NCBI GenBank assembly: GCA_903851195.1
Contig: CAINNJ010000049.1
Location: forward strand, 186,001 to 250,000
Length of the DNA: 64,000 nucleotides
Source of the DNA: an uncultured Acidobacteriia bacterium
GTDB taxonomy: Bacteria > Acidobacteriota > Terriglobia > Bryobacterales > Bryobacteraceae
Direction of reading: 5' to 3'
Shown here in pieces: positions 12,644 to 63,948 of this stretch. Each line of letters starts with the position of its first letter. Within the stretch, counting starts at the first letter, position 1. The notes under the pieces were generated by a model that did not search any database, was not told the origin of the DNA, and saw nothing but the letters and a program-made list of their open reading frames with translations. The translations under genes and the position numbers were made by a program.

Positions 12644-13201
12644 ATGCCTCTTGCCGACGACCTCTACAAGGCCCTTCTTGATGAGTCGAAGATGTATCGC
12701 GAAAAGGTTTCCGCGATTTGGCTGCAGAAGTTTACTGTACTCGGCGCCATCGTCGTGTTTGCCGCTGCGCGATCAGAGGTGATCGCCTCGAACCCGGGCC
12801 TGATCGCGGCGGCCATTCTGTCACTTCCACTGATCGCGCTCCTGCTGGATATCAAGTTGGGAGAATTCGGCATTCACGCCAACATTATCGACCACTTTAT
12901 CATCAGACATTTTCCTGAGCCCCCTGTTCTGGGCGAATGGGAGCGAACGAAATGGGGCCTGATCTCCAACTCTGACGAGCGCTTCTCGTTGGTTCGTTTA
13001 CGCTCGATTCTTACCGTGGCGGTCACGGTCATACCGACATGCGTCATCTCCGCGTTATCCGTTCTGGCCGCCAGACCCTTTCTTTTCGCTTCCGAACATG
13101 GAGGTCTCTATGGTTATCTCCGCGTTACGGTAATCATCTTCTGCGTTCTTTACCTGGCGGCCGGCCTGATCTCGGTTCCCCTGATTGTTTTTCGCCGGTA
13201 A
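12644..13201 (+). CDS. four-helix membrane protein, unknown function
   Basis: A 185-residue protein with four hydrophobic segments, near residues 30-48, 52-70, 121-141 and 157-180, and a soluble loop of about 50 residues between helices two and three. This is the common topology of small uncharacterised inner-membrane proteins. The ATG is preceded by a GGGAG-type ribosome site. It follows the oxidoreductase by 33 bases on the same strand and may be cotranscribed. I do not recognise a family and assign no function. Confidence 0.75.
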   Translation: MPLADDLYKALLDESKMYREKVSAIWLQKFTVLGAIVVFAAARSEVIASNPGLIAAAILSLPLIALLLDIKLGEFGIHANIIDHFIIRHFPEPPVLGEWERTKWGLISNSDERFSLVRLRSILTVAVTVIPTCVISALSVLAARPFLFASEHGGLYGYLRVTVIIFCVLYLAAGLISVPLIVFRR

Positions 13202-59071: not shown

Positions 59072-59918
59072 ATGAAAGGTCCGCACCCTGTTTTGTGCGT
59101 AATTCTTTCCACATCCGCGGCGTGGGCCATGGCGGACCCGCCGGATGTGAATGCCCTGGTCCGCCAGTCGGTCGCCAACTTCGAAAAGAGCCGCCGGGCG
59201 GGGCTGCAATGGCAGTACACCCAGACGGACACCACGGTTGCCGCAAACTCTAAAACCACCGAAGTGTCGGAAGTGACGCCCTTGCTCGGCACGCCCTACG
59301 AACGCCTCGTCGCCAAAAACGGCCATCCCCTCTCCCCTGAAGAACGCCGGAAAGAGGAAGAGAAGTTTCAGAAGACCCTCCAGCGCCGACAACGAGTCCA
59401 CACAGGAGCGTGCCGCCCGCCTCCGCAAATTCGAATCGGACTGGTCTTTCCTGAAAGATCTCCCCAACGCCTACACATACAAACTCGTTGGCGAGGAGGC
59501 AGTGAACGGCCGCCCCGCATGGCTTGTGCAAATGACGCCCCGCCCCGATTTCCGCCCCGTCACCTCGCGAGGCGCCATGCTGAAACACATCGAAGGCCGC
59601 CTCTGGATCGACAAAGCGGAGGTGCAGTGGGCACGCGCCGACGCACATGTGATCGACCCCATCAGCATCGGCTGGATCATCGCCCGCATCGGCGCCGGAG
59701 CCGACATCCACCTCGACTTCGAACGAGTCGCCGAAGGCGTCTGGTTGCCCCAGGATATCGATATCAACGGCAGCGCCAGGATCATGATGGTGCACCGGAA
59801 AGACCTGAAGGAGCACGTCGCCTTCTCGCGCTATTCCCGCGCGGAAGAGCCCCCCGCCGTTCAGGTCACCGGAACCCCTGCCAAAAAGAAGCCCCTAACG
59901 AAACGATCCTTTCGTTAA
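59072..59918 (+). pseudogene. frameshifted secreted protein (outer-membrane-lipoprotein-sorting-like)
   Basis: The first frame starts with a signal peptide (ATG at 59072, MKGPHPVLCVILSTSAAWAM). It continues with protein-like sequence, SVANFEKSRRAGLQWQYTQT, to QKTLQR at 59386. Skipping one base at about 59387 moves to the next frame, which reads DNESTQERAARLRKFESDW, then YKLVGEEAVNGRPAWLVQM and IEGRLWIDKAEVQWARADA, ending KKPLTKRSFR at 59918. Joined, this is 281 residues with no other break. The second half resembles acidobacterial periplasmic proteins with a LolA-like fold. Either it is a recent pseudogene or the sequence has a one-base insertion error. Confidence 0.75.
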
Positions 59919-59979
59919 CCCCTTTCACTACCAAACGAAATCATGCTATCCTTTCGTTAACCAAAATCCAGCGAAAGGA
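59896..59979. promoter_or_regulatory. putative autoregulatory operator array of the Fic gene
   Basis: Five copies of a half-site close to taacgaaagg. Plus-strand copies are at 59896-59903 (taacgaaa), 59934-59940 (aacgaaa) and 59973-59979 (cgaaagga). Minus-strand copies are at 59908-59917 and 59950-59959 (cctttcgtta). The first four pair as two inverted repeats with 6- and 11-base spacers. The fifth overlaps the ribosome site of the Fic gene. The first pair also overlaps the end of the upstream frameshifted gene. Confidence 0.65.
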
Positions 59980-59985
59980 TTTCAC

Positions 59986-61173
59986 CTGCCGGACGAGCCC
60001 CCAACCCGCGCCCTCGGCCACTATGTCGTCACAAAATACGCCGGCGAGGAGGTGCGTGCCTTCGTCCCCCCGCCGCTCCCGCCATACCCCCCGGTTCGCC
60101 TCGACAATCTCCAACTCCTCCTCGAACAGGCCAACCAGGCCGTAGGCCGCCTCGACGGTCTCGCCTCCGTCCTCCCCGATCTCTCGTATTTCATCTACTC
60201 TTACGTCCGTAAGGAGGCCGTTCTCTCCTCCCAGATCGAAGGCACCCAGTCGTCCCTCTCCGACCTCCTCATGTACGAAAACGAGTCCGCCCCCGGCGTC
60301 CCGCTCGACGACGTGCAGGAGGTTTCCAACTACGTCGCCGCCATGAACCACGGCCTCACCCGCATGCGCGACGGCTTCCCCCTCTCCCTGCGCCTCATCA
60401 GAGAGATTCACGACGTCCTGCTCTCCAAAGGGCGCGGCAGCGAAAAACAGCCCGGCGAATTCCGCACCAGCCAGAACTGGATTGGCGGCACCCGGCCCGG
60501 CAATGCCGCCTTCGTCCCGCCCCCGCCGGACATGGTCCTCGAATGCATGGGCCGCCTCGAACTCTTCCTCCACGAAGAGCGCCCCGACATGCCGCTCCTC
60601 ATCCGCGCCGGCCTCGCCCACGTCCAGTTCGAATCCATCCACCCATTCCTCGACGGCAACGGCCGCCTGGGACGCCTGCTCATCACCTTCCTGCTCTGCG
60701 CCGCCGGTGTCATTCGCGAACCAATCCTTTACCTCAGCCTCTACTTCAAAACTCACCGCTCCGCCTACTACGAACTACTCGACCGCGTACGCCGGACCGG
60801 CGAATGGGAGGTCTGGCTCGACTTCTTTCTCCGCGGCGTCCGCGAAACCGCCGACCAGGCCGCCCACGCCGCCCGCCGCATCGTCGCCCTCTTCGAGCAG
60901 GACATCCGCCGCATCGGCACCCTCGGCCGCCCCGGAACCTCCGCCCTCGCCGTCTTCCACTACATGCAGCGCGTCCCCATCGTCGCCATCCCGGTCACCG
61001 CCCGCAAAATCGGCATGTCGGCGCCGACCGTAGCCAAGTCTCTGGACCACATGCAGGCCCTCGGTATCGTCAGTGAGATCACCGGCCGCGAGCGCGACCG
61101 CCTGTTCACCTACCAGGCCTACCTGTCCATCCTCAACGAAGGCACCGAACCCCTCAGTCGCAACGCCTGGTAA
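59986..61173 (+). CDS. Fic-family AMPylase-like protein with N-terminal inhibitory motif and C-terminal winged helix
   Basis: A 395-residue Fic protein if started at CTG 59986; the first standard start in frame is GTG 60052. The CTG is chosen because AAAGGA (59974-59979) lies six bases upstream and the codons after it give the family N-terminus (LGHYVVTKYAGEEVRAFVPP), which a GTG start would cut. The inhibitory helix SSQIEGTQSS lies near residue 82. The active loop HPFLDGNGRLGR is intact. The C-terminal region VTARKIGMSAPTVAKSLDHM is a helix-turn-helix. Family enzymes attach AMP to target proteins. The winged helix probably binds the adjacent half-site array. Confidence 0.85.
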   Translation: MPDEPPTRALGHYVVTKYAGEEVRAFVPPPLPPYPPVRLDNLQLLLEQANQAVGRLDGLASVLPDLSYFIYSYVRKEAVLSSQIEGTQSSLSDLLMYENESAPGVPLDDVQEVSNYVAAMNHGLTRMRDGFPLSLRLIREIHDVLLSKGRGSEKQPGEFRTSQNWIGGTRPGNAAFVPPPPDMVLECMGRLELFLHEERPDMPLLIRAGLAHVQFESIHPFLDGNGRLGRLLITFLLCAAGVIREPILYLSLYFKTHRSAYYELLDRVRRTGEWEVWLDFFLRGVRETADQAAHAARRIVALFEQDIRRIGTLGRPGTSALAVFHYMQRVPIVAIPVTARKIGMSAPTVAKSLDHMQALGIVSEITGRERDRLFTYQAYLSILNEGTEPLSRNAW

Positions 61174-61209: not shown

Positions 61210-63288
61210 ATGCTTCGCCGCGCCCCGCTTCTTCTTGTCCTCGCCGCCTGCACTCTGACCAGCCAGCAGGCCTCCCGCAGCGGCATCCACCCCGAAGACA
61301 TGGACCCCACCTGCAAGCCCTGCACGGACTTCTGGCGCTACGTCAACGGCGGCTGGCTCGATAAGAACCCCATTCCCTCCCACCTCGCCAGCTGGGGCAC
61401 ATTTCCCGTTCTTTCCGAAGCGAATCAGGAAAGAACCCGCACCATTCTCGACGCCGCCGTCTCGGACACCTCCGCCAAACCCGGCTCCAACAAGCGCAAG
61501 ATGGGCGACCTCTACGCGAGCTGCATGAATACGGCCGCCATCGACCAGCGGGGTATCTCCCCCCTCCAGCCCGATTTCGACCGCATCGCCGCCATCTCCT
61601 CAACCAAAGACCTCACCGCCGCCCTGGCCGTCTTTCAGAAAAGCGCGCGCCCCTTCGGAGCCGTCAACGGCGTCGTCGTCGGCCCCTTCCGCCTCACCTC
61701 CGGTCAGGATCCCAAAGACCCCTCGCGCATCATCGCCCGCATCGTGGAACGTGACGGCGCCGGCCGCACCGGCAGCGCTATCTTCTCCCTGCCCGATCGC
61801 GACTACTACCTGAAAACCGACCCCAAATCCCTCGAAACCCGCGCCGCCTTCACGGACCACGTTGCCCGCCTCCTGCAACTTGCCGGCACTCCCGCCATCG
61901 ACGCCCAGACCCAGGCGAAAACCATTCTGGACTTCGAAACCGCCCTCGCTGCTTCCGTCATGAGCATCGCCGAAAAGCGCGATCCCGAGAAGATCTATCA
62001 CCTGATGGATCTCGCCGGCCTCCGCGCTCTGGCCCCCGCCTTCGACTGGGCACAGTTCCTCCGCGAACAGGGCCTCCCCGAATCGACTCCCGTCAACGTC
62101 ACCGAGCCGGAACTGCTGAAGAAGGTGAACGAACAACTCACCGCCGCCCCTCTCGCTACCTGGAAAACCTGGCTCCACTGGCGCGCTCTCCAGATCGCCG
62201 CGCCCTACCTGGCCAAACCCGTCTCGGATGAAGACTTTCACTTCCAGCGCACCGTCCTCGCCGGCGTGACGCAGCCGCCCCCGCGCTGGCAGACCTGCGC
62301 CTCCATCGTCGATCGCGATTTGAGCGACGTCCTCGGCCAGGCTTGGGTCGAGAAATACTTCCCGCCCGAAGCCAAACGCCGCATGATCCAGCTGGTCGAA
62401 AACCTCCGCGCCGCTCTGCGCGACAACCTCGAGCACTCCGACTGGATGCAGCCCGCCACCCGCCAGAGCGCCATCCGCAAACTCGATGCCCTCCAGATCC
62501 AGATCGGCTATCCCGACCGTTGGCGCGACTATTCCGCCCTCCCCATCGGCCCGAATACCTACTATGAAAACGTCCGCGCCGCCTGGGCCCATGGCCAGCG
62601 CTACGAAATCGCCCGAATCGGCAAACCCGTGGACCACCTCGACTGGGGCATGACGCCCCCCACCGTCAACGCCTACTCGAGCACCGCCGACATGAAAGTC
62701 GTCTTCCCCGCCGGCATCCTCCAGCCCCCGTTCTTCGACATGCAGGCCGACGATGCCGCCAACTACGGCGCCATCGGTGCCGTCATCGGCCACGAAATCG
62801 GCCACCAGTTCGACGACGGCGGCTCCAAATTCGACGCCACCGGCGCTCTGAAAAACTGGTGGACGCCGGAAGATCGCCAGCAGTTCGAAACCCGCACCGC
62901 CTGCGTTGTCGACGAGTTCAATACCCTCGATGTCGGCGGCGGACTGCACCACAACGGCAAACAGGTGCTCGGCGAAGCGCTCGGCGATTTAGGCGGACTC
63001 GCCATCGCCTGGAAGGCTTACCAGCGCACTCTGGCGGGAAAACCCGCGCCCCCGGCGATGGACGGCTTCACGGCCGATCAGCGCTTCTTCATCTCGTTCG
63101 CCCGCGTCTGGGGCACCCAACAGCGCGCCGAAGCCGAGCGCCTGCAGCTCAACACCAACAACCACCCCATCGCCCGGTACCGCGCCATCGCAACCCTCCA
63201 GAACATGCCGGAATTCCACCGCGCGTTCCAGTGCAAACCAGGCGACCCCATGGTCCGCCCGCTGGCAAAACAGTGCAAGTTGTGGTGA
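61210..63288 (+). CDS. M13-family (neprilysin-like) zinc metallopeptidase lipoprotein
   Basis: A 692-residue peptidase with a lipoprotein signal (lipobox LAAC, modified Cys14). It begins with the family motif CKPCTDFWRYVNGGWLDKNP. Zinc ligands are His528 and His532 in GHEIGHQFDDGG and Glu589 in GEALGDLGG, with Asp593. Substrate-binding VNAYSSTADMKVVFPAGILQ and the C-terminal FFISFARVWGTQ region are present. M13 enzymes cut small peptides outside the cytoplasm. It is a separate gene 36 bases after the Fic gene. Confidence 0.93.
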   Translation: MLRRAPLLLVLAACTLTSQQASRSGIHPEDMDPTCKPCTDFWRYVNGGWLDKNPIPSHLASWGTFPVLSEANQERTRTILDAAVSDTSAKPGSNKRKMGDLYASCMNTAAIDQRGISPLQPDFDRIAAISSTKDLTAALAVFQKSARPFGAVNGVVVGPFRLTSGQDPKDPSRIIARIVERDGAGRTGSAIFSLPDRDYYLKTDPKSLETRAAFTDHVARLLQLAGTPAIDAQTQAKTILDFETALAASVMSIAEKRDPEKIYHLMDLAGLRALAPAFDWAQFLREQGLPESTPVNVTEPELLKKVNEQLTAAPLATWKTWLHWRALQIAAPYLAKPVSDEDFHFQRTVLAGVTQPPPRWQTCASIVDRDLSDVLGQAWVEKYFPPEAKRRMIQLVENLRAALRDNLEHSDWMQPATRQSAIRKLDALQIQIGYPDRWRDYSALPIGPNTYYENVRAAWAHGQRYEIARIGKPVDHLDWGMTPPTVNAYSSTADMKVVFPAGILQPPFFDMQADDAANYGAIGAVIGHEIGHQFDDGGSKFDATGALKNWWTPEDRQQFETRTACVVDEFNTLDVGGGLHHNGKQVLGEALGDLGGLAIAWKAYQRTLAGKPAPPAMDGFTADQRFFISFARVWGTQQRAEAERLQLNTNNHPIARYRAIATLQNMPEFHRAFQCKPGDPMVRPLAKQCKLW

Positions 63289-63291
63289 TTT

Positions 63292-63684
63292 TTAAGAAAG
63301 AACCGTACTGAATTCCCGCAGAAACGCGGCATAGCCGGCCTCTTCCAGATCCCCGGAAGCCAGCGCCAGAACGGCCTGCGCCGCGTCTTCTTCGCTGGCT
63401 CCAAAGCGATACCCGTTGAGTTCCAGAAACAGCAGACCGATCACGAACCCGGTGCGCTTGTTCCCGTCCACGAAGGGATGGTTCCGCACAATGCCAGCCG
63501 TGTAAATGGAGGCGAGATGGATCACATCCGGCGACTCCCCATAGGCAAAATGCTGCTTTGGCCGGGCGAGGGCCGATTTCAGCAGCCCCTCGTCCCGCAG
63601 CCCTGCTGCCCCGCCATTCAGGATCAGCAGGCGGGTATGCAGGGCTAACGTATCGCGCTCGTCAACCCAGACCGGTTCTGTCAC
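63292..63684 (-). CDS. doc: Doc-type toxin (Fic fold)
   Basis: A 130-residue death-on-curing protein. The motif HPFVDGNKRTGF near residue 69 is the Doc variant of the Fic loop; Doc phosphorylates elongation factor Tu. The rest matches the short family (ALARPKQHFAYGESPDVIHL). It starts with GTG, 18 bases after the antitoxin stop, and ends three bases from the peptidase stop, so the two genes converge without a visible terminator. It needs the upstream AbrB-like protein as antitoxin. Intact by length and motif. Confidence 0.88.
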   Translation of the reverse strand: MTEPVWVDERDTLALHTRLLILNGGAAGLRDEGLLKSALARPKQHFAYGESPDVIHLASIYTAGIVRNHPFVDGNKRTGFVIGLLFLELNGYRFGASEEDAAQAVLALASGDLEEAGYAAFLREFSTVLS

Positions 63685-63702
63685 GTGGAGAGCCCGATTC
63701 TC

Positions 63703-63930
63703 TTATTTCGAAAGAACGTGCAGCGTATTGCGATACCGGCTGATAATGTCATCCGCTCTCGCCATCTTGCGTTCGAATCCCGGATCATACGGCGTGAGGT
63801 GATACCCGCCGTCCGGTCCTTCCACCAGATAAAGGAGGTCGCCCTCGACGGCTTGCAGATGGCTAAGGACGTCCTTGGGCAAAGCCAAACCCAGCGAATT
63901 TCCCACTTTCCTTACCTTCAGTGCAACCAT
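63703..63930 (-). CDS. AbrB/MazE-type antitoxin of the Doc pair
   Basis: A 75-residue protein with an N-terminal swapped-hairpin DNA-binding domain (VRKVGNSLGLALPKDVLSHL) and a C-terminal tail (ERKMARADDIISRYRNTLHV) that would cover the toxin. I start at the ATG at 63930 because GGAGG lies eight bases upstream. A GTG at 63945 would extend it by five residues. It likely represses its own operon at the two palindromes just upstream. Confidence 0.87.
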   Translation of the reverse strand: MVALKVRKVGNSLGLALPKDVLSHLQAVEGDLLYLVEGPDGGYHLTPYDPGFERKMARADDIISRYRNTLHVLSK

Positions 63931-63948
63931 AGCAAGCGCCTCCACTCC

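Follow-up and report, generated by a model that had tools for sequence, protein, structure and literature searches.

A conserved array of inverted half-sites as the probable operator of a self-repressing fic gene in an uncultured acidobacterium

In a 64,000-nucleotide stretch of DNA from an uncultured Acidobacteriia bacterium (assembly GCA_903851195.1, contig CAINNJ010000049.1, positions 186,001 to 250,000; the whole stretch is called the window below, and positions are counted from its first letter), a gene for a Fic protein is preceded by an array of short inverted half-sites. Comparison of this locus with its relatives makes it probable that the array serves as operator for a self-repressing, CTG-started fic gene and is bound by the C-terminal winged helix of the Fic protein itself.

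The half-site TAACGAAAGG is present in several copies and in both orientations within 59896-59988. Over the whole window its matches with at most two mismatches on both strands are in no excess (34 versus a shuffle mean of 32), but five of them, including 59921 and excluding 59933 (three mismatches), cluster within 83 bases at 59896-59978, whereas outside this cluster any 84-nt stretch of the window holds two at most. When three mismatches are allowed, the array contains seven matches, and five each are found near 13077 and near 63905. This clustering confirms the inverted array over the Fic leader that was proposed in the initial annotation. Its upstream end, 59896-59917, is a 22-bp near-perfect palindrome, TAACGAAAcgatccTTTCGTTA; a comparable palindrome (at most three mismatches) was observed in 6 of 100 shuffles of the window, and the only exact match of the pattern AACGAAA-N6-TTTCGTT in the 7.7-Mb genome is this palindrome.

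In the register shared by the family (see below), the sites of the window start at 59909 (minus strand), 59928 (plus, degenerate), 59951 (minus), and 59969 (plus). Half-site 0, TAACGAAAG (59909-59917, minus), agrees at nine of nine positions in the comparison of 9-mers and lies 42 bp upstream of site 2. Half-site 1 is the degenerate CTACCAAAC at the conserved position (59928-59936, plus), half-site 2 is again TAACGAAAG (59951-59959, minus) and directly follows TATC, and half-site 3 is CAGCGAAAG (59969-59977, plus). Further copies are TAACGAAAC, the left arm of the palindrome (59896-59904, plus), AAACGAAAT (59933-59941, plus), and a weak half-site at 59921 (minus). Site 2 overlaps a likely extended -10 box, TGCTATCCT (59944-59952, plus), whose TAT in front of site 2 is also seen in relatives, and a weak possible -35 box, TTCACT (59924-59929, plus), was read from the sequence 17 nt before it, not being reported by the consensus scan. 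As had been noticed initially, one half-site overlaps the ribosome site: the Shine-Dalgarno sequence AAAGGA (59974-59979, plus), six bases before CTG 59986-59988, lies within site 3.

The same array design, in other letters, was detected upstream of Fic homologues from several phyla. The upstream regions compared were those of the best 30 matches from each of two homologue searches and of 40 matches chosen by hand. The conserved unit consists of three half-sites in plus, minus, plus orientation at steps of 23 and 18 bp (gaps of 14 bp between the facing 9-mers and 9 bp between the back-to-back ones), extended in a third of the cases to minus, plus, minus, plus. Thus, of the two facing pairs initially described in the window, the inverted copies stand, whereas the pairing itself lies partly off the family register. 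A letter-blind scan for three 9-mers repeating in this orientation near these distances was applied to 103 loci, the window included, which are the homologues with enough upstream DNA; the loci are mutually related, and all counts are of loci and no independent events. The triad was at the shuffle floor (p about 0.01) in 70 of the 103 loci, 60 of these 70 with exact 23/18 spacing, and had p up to 0.05 in 86; in 72 it beat every other tested 120-base stretch of its own locus. When a bonus for TAT before site 2 was added to the scoring and 166 loci were examined, 97 had p below 0.02.

The middle half-site usually follows directly after TATN, and even among triads scored without the bonus TAT immediately precedes site 2 in 52 of 60, so that site 2 appears to cover the -10 box. 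Of 56 representatives, 19 (0.3 expected) have an additional minus-strand site with at least seven of nine matching letters some 41 bp upstream from site 2; this site was not used for selection, except that two of the 19 (L001 and L078) were found through it, and its counterpart in the window is the site at 59909. Relatives of this Fic protein are also carried by plasmids (213 records in a plasmid search).

The fic gene (59986-61173, plus strand; 395 codons from CTG 59986 to TAA) encodes a class II, SoFic-like Fic protein with a C-terminal winged helix. Fic_N and Fic domains were detected (Pfam Fic, 72.6 bits, cut-off 24), and the active-site motif HPFLDGNGRLGR (residues 219-230, 60640-60675) satisfies the class II Fic pattern HxFx[D/E]GNGRxxR. 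N-terminal to it, residues 81-86 (60226-60243) form SSQIEG, which agrees with [S/T]xxxE[G/N] and which we take to be the inhibitory-helix motif; S81, S82, I84, E85, and G86 are invariant in an alignment of 55 sequences. The PADLOC profile of SoFic matches residues 22-384 with 387 bits (2.1e-116), whereas the NCBIfam SoFic equivalog scores 135 bits, far under its cut-off of 550, and hence the protein is called SoFic-like. The predicted model (mean predicted local distance difference test score, pLDDT, 82.4; predicted template modelling score 0.83) comprises a beta hairpin (residues 12-27), the Fic core, and a winged helix-turn-helix domain at about residues 317-384 (60934-61137), also supported by fold matches, with the recognition helix at residues 346-358 (61021-61059); the closest solved folds are a Fic protein of Mycobacterium marinum and SoFic of Shewanella. 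By these features the product would be a class II AMP-transferase and potentially toxic, and we infer a role in defence for it. Elsewhere in the genome the protein has a single match, a weak one of short extent (35% over 102 residues, E 2.2e-11).

An argument for the Fic protein as its own regulator comes from the operator letters, which change together with the recognition helix. Half-site types such as TAACGAAAG, CAAAGAAAG, CTAAGAAAA, TTATTAAAG, CAAGTAAAG, and TTATTTTAG occur with different recognition helices: SAPTVAKS goes with ..CGAAAG, TAPTVRSA with ..AGAAAA, TTPTVTAA with ..TTAAAG, SKPTANAA with ..GTAAAG, and PATVNK with ..TTTTAG. We compared the alignment columns of the protein with operator positions in 81 loci, where operator position 5 is G in 48 and T in 33. 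They derive from 91 of the 166 loci selected by the score with the TAT bonus, after exclusion of two short proteins and of L094, L093, L108, L121, L178, L180, L186, and L141, which had an uncertain frame or no helix; the sites of L001, L078, and L080 were assigned manually in the canonical frame. Among 395 columns, the largest excess mutual information with operator position 5 is at residues 346, 371, and 350, that is, the start of the recognition helix, a residue of the wing (61096-61098), and a residue one turn further along the helix. The best columns for the other positions are 371 and 346 for position 4, 347 for positions 6 and 7, and 355 and 345 for position 2, whereas the top columns for positions 1, 3, 8, and 9 lie elsewhere and have low values.

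A second comparison, corrected for divergence of the protein core, used 56 representatives below 90% core identity and 372 windows of eight residues. Operator divergence is followed best by residues 345-352 (partial r 0.375 against a mean of 0.059 with standard deviation 0.111; p 0.001 by a permutation which removes kinship only in part), and the nine best windows all fall within 340-359. Switches are also seen within a fairly close set of loci, where L079 and L084 have G350 and CTAATAAAA at site 2, whereas L076 and L083 have R350 and CTAAGAAAA. Such joint changes of operator and helix support the Fic protein itself as the repressor.

Several observations weigh against this interpretation. In the window itself the conserved site 1 is the degenerate one, whereas two clear copies, 59896 and 59933, do not fit the register, the second lying 5 bp away from it, and a scan of the promoter region with the sigma-70 consensus returned no match. 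No triad at p 0.05 was found in 17 of the 103 loci, which include L030 and L065, with 64-66% identity, and L033-L036, L040, and L041, with 56-61%. Columns 99 and 39, outside the DNA-binding domain, are among the top ten for operator position 5, and the tenth-ranked window of the divergence comparison, 246-253 (r 0.301), is outside the winged helix; the residual kinship mentioned above belongs here as well. On a tree of the protein core at least seven changes of position 5 can be counted, but only two independent pairs fall on well-supported branches, which leaves a sign test underpowered.

A held-out set was drawn from viral contigs: of its 80 loci 74 were usable, and 54 remained for testing after 20 near-identical ones had been dropped; the array was present at p below 0.02 in 26 of the 54, 17 of the 26 could be framed, and of these 14 were scorable and three unscorable. 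A rule fixed beforehand was right in 10 of 14 cases (T in 7/7, G in 3/7; Fisher p 0.096), which also speaks against our interpretation. All four failed G predictions have K351 together with L or V at position 346, and residue 346 therefore seems to weigh more than the rule allowed. A rule based on residue 346 only, the top column, with residue classes picked after all data had been seen, is right in 12 of 14 (one-sided Fisher 10/364 = 0.027, calculated by hand). The protein-DNA code is real in outline, judging from these comparisons, and still short of a predictor. The binding of the sites by the winged helix, suggested initially, finds good comparative support in the recurrence of the array, the co-variation with helix and wing, and the results of the genome search below.

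The initial annotation also placed the translation start at a CTG codon. In this frame the first ATG, GTG, or TTG is GTG 60052; even when every NTG and ATN codon is counted, the stretch from the preceding in-frame stop to codon 12 offers just one, CTG 59986. Homologues whose start corresponds to GTG 60052 would have contradicted the proposal. Among 48 relatives with at least 65% identity whose match starts no later than residue 10, each one carries an in-frame ATG, GTG, or TTG at codon 12 or further upstream (this check is mechanical, and some of the GTG or TTG codons may be there by chance). CTG starts are rare, and it might be supposed that this one is not natural, being either a sequencing or assembly error for GTG, which is conceivable, or a codon upstream of the true start at GTG 60052; we regard this as unlikely. 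In its favor, exactly at the place of the CTG seven relatives have GTG and one TTG (eight others have ATG, and 32 start elsewhere nearby), and GAGGAG directly adjoins GTG 60052, but this is a tighter arrangement than usual for a Shine-Dalgarno sequence. A further point against CTG is L031 (69% identity, match from residue 44-45), whose match is preceded by 26 open codons with no ordinary start among them.

Translation from GTG 60052 would delete residues 1-22, which hold the nearly invariant G11 and E21 (alignment of 55 sequences) and the predicted strand 12-18, the first strand of the hairpin, in a block of mean pLDDT 84. Codons 10-22 differ less at first positions (0.43 per codon) than upstream DNA does (0.71) in an ungapped comparison, but the values for second and third positions are nearly equal (0.60 and 0.62), so that this codon test is weak alone. 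Taken together, the starts of the relatives, the predicted fold, and the lack of an alternative codon favor translation from CTG 59986 as the likely reading. Close relatives often have GTG or TTG at the start, 4-5 bases after the same AAAGGA or AAAGG, and thus a weak start seems usual in the group. A gene finder restricted to ATG, GTG, and TTG would place this fic start 22 codons late. Another unusual start may exist in the family, since L084 apparently has ATC at the place of the ATG start of its near relative L079.

We searched the complete genome for a regulon of the array, using the palindrome and two conserved pair types, and found no convincing second target. With at most three mismatches the back-to-back pair occurs at two places, one of which is that of fic (two mismatches), compared with four for a control, and the second conserved pair type occurs once (three mismatches), not at fic, compared with one for its control; no copy of the conserved back-to-back pair elsewhere in the genome surpasses that of fic. 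The palindrome has 22 matches per strand with at most two mismatches, of which two fall in the fic array, against six for a control pattern, and only the fic copy is exact; we do not read a regulon into these matches, since pattern and control differ in dinucleotide composition. Since no better second pair is found, the array seems to be a switch private to fic.

Unlinked regulators can govern the promoters of toxic genes, and in principle a DNA-binding protein encoded elsewhere could control the fic promoter without Fic binding the array. This is very unlikely, as the operator letters track the recognition helix and wing of Fic better than the rest of the protein, the array recurs beside fic in several phyla, and the genome offers no better second back-to-back pair. 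Moreover, no small neighbour is shared beyond one related group among the 25 most shared of 2396 small open reading frames (clustered at E 1e-6), and no conserved antitoxin partner was seen among these.

The repeats could also act mainly as RNA, with sites 2 and 3 of a read-through transcript forming an 11-bp hairpin that hides the Shine-Dalgarno sequence. The segment 59930-59995 does fold with the Shine-Dalgarno sequence in an 11-bp stem (-13.6 kcal/mol, z -2.9). In RNA beginning at the expected own start (59959), only a 6-bp hairpin is left, which still takes GGA of the Shine-Dalgarno sequence, and the overall fold is no better than shuffles (z 0.76). Site 2, lying over the -10 box, is mostly outside the transcript of the gene itself, and site 1, repeating site 3 in the same orientation, is left unexplained by a single hairpin. 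In L021, L023, and L026, from genomes of the same genus as the window, the ATG shares bases with the end of site 2, and site 3, though it falls in about codons 4-7, is kept, which points to a constraint on DNA and not on a ribosome site or an RNA hairpin. Given these facts and a correlation with the recognition helix that would be unexpected for RNA, we consider a principal role as RNA highly improbable, and the hairpin could be a side effect that silences read-through.

Self-repression is the simplest interpretation, and the following scheme may be drawn for it. The Fic protein, probably as a dimer or higher oligomer, would bind the TAACGAAAG half-sites through its C-terminal winged helix, with site 1 covering the -35 region and spacer, site 2 the -10 box, and site 3 the leader with the ribosome site, and bound Fic would exclude RNA polymerase. 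Only loss or dilution of Fic, or its removal from the DNA, would let expression rise. The CTG start and the inhibitory helix would additionally keep the AMP-transferase low, and in read-through RNA the pairing of sites 2 and 3 could hide the ribosome site as a possible second lock.

Several features of individual relatives were observed along the way. The layout in L021, L023, and L026 suggests a leaderless transcript with the operator inside the gene. The alphaproteobacterial loci L045-L066, inspected by eye, often show additional half-sites flanking the triad on either side, among them a minus-strand copy just before the ATG. In L033-L041 (56-61% identity, mostly of the same order) the helix differs and the triad is weak or missing. 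The same array on contigs filed as viral (L195-L274) may reflect either a prophage-borne gene with its operator or misfiled host sequence. In genomes G015, G024, and G040 the Fic gene is in separate pieces, one with an internal stop, by decay or assembly faults.

Around the fic gene, an M13 peptidase gene follows at 61210 (in a list limited to open reading frames of at least 60 residues). The upstream gene (59072-59918, plus strand), which has no Pfam match, seems broken: a first frame starts at 59072, and a second one runs from about 59502 to 59918; its last stop codon overlaps half-site 0. About 2 kb beyond fic, a second Fido-fold gene belongs to the pair at 63292-63945 (minus strand). It encodes a death-on-curing toxin (61.6 bits for DOC_P1, cut-off 38.65), and the gene in front of it encodes a partner of MazE/AbrB type, whose 53.6 bits for doc_partner fall slightly short of the cut-off of 55.9. 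Sharing of the operator with this Doc/MazE-like pair was considered and rejected, as the pair has its own upstream repeat, an operator-like direct repeat around GTTATAACAT (L193, 450-475).

Among the relatives found, Fic proteins that end in a winged helix are common, and self-repression is likely the common role in this branch, given a conserved array whose letters track the recognition helix. A much more tentative extension, which we would hold possible and rather doubtful, is that the branch represents widespread defence toxins of a single gene, each targeted solely to its own promoter, so that many self-repressors are mutually deaf and the promoter serves as a sensor. The 23/18-bp array would then be kept across several phyla, and the letters of the half-sites would change jointly with the recognition helix; half-sites doubling as -10 box and ribosome site, the hairpin, and the weak start would make several locks in about 90 bp; and a Fic oligomer held by the array might be released if the promoter is lost, copied, or attacked. 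For specificity, the comparison pinpoints residues 346, 347, 350, and 351 and wing residue 371 along with the operator positions, and the family offers a natural set of protein-DNA specificity switches. The array can also serve to find such fic genes and correct their starts.

In the literature searched on Fic regulation, mostly titles and openings of abstracts, no conserved Fic operator array and no code linking operator and recognition helix was found, and within the literature covered DNA binding of a Fic winged helix has been tested for CccR and CbFic2 only. Kinch et al. (2009; PMC2686095) proposed that helix-turn-helix domains fused to Fic may regulate fic expression. Phd-Doc resembles the present case in that a Fido-fold toxin is kept low by repression at its own promoter (PMC2686095), but there a separate antitoxin is the repressor, whereas here enzyme and presumed repressor are one protein. 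CbFic2 of Coxiella burnetii (PDB 8cil; PMC10628234) likewise combines a class II Fic domain with a DNA-binding winged helix; it differs in that it reportedly binds random DNA tightly, with the DNA acting on enzyme activity, and no operator is described in that account.

The Fic protein of the window matches the PADLOC profile of the anti-phage protein SoFic (PDB 3eqx, 3zcn) and has its fold, with the winged helix. It is 25-26% identical to the solved SoFic and stays at 135 of the 550 bits of the equivalog, and a coarse search revealed no widely conserved small AS1-like gene near Fic genes of the window type. The antitoxin AS1 of SoFic, 47 residues long and encoded downstream, is described in one E. 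coli study (PMC12249575), the main text of which does not contain the terms transcription, HTH, winged, DNA binding, or upstream.

The closest parallel is CccR of Yersinia pseudotuberculosis, a Fic toxin that represses its own gene via inverted repeats near -35 and -10, as established by gel shift, footprint, and lacZ experiments (PMC9755527). Both proteins have a Fic domain, an N-terminal inhibitory motif, also treated in that paper, and a C-terminal helix-turn-helix (PMC9755527), and both genes have inverted repeats at -35 and -10 of their own promoter, its position being inferred in our case. The systems differ in that CccR, a type VI effector, has two 10-bp repeats 26 bp apart, whereas here three or four half-sites are spaced by 23 and 18 bp and one of them lies over the ribosome site. 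Thus, within the literature covered, a self-repressing Fic protein is known from CccR, and what is new are the array conserved among relatives and its spacing, the code linking protein and DNA, and the likely use of CTG as start.

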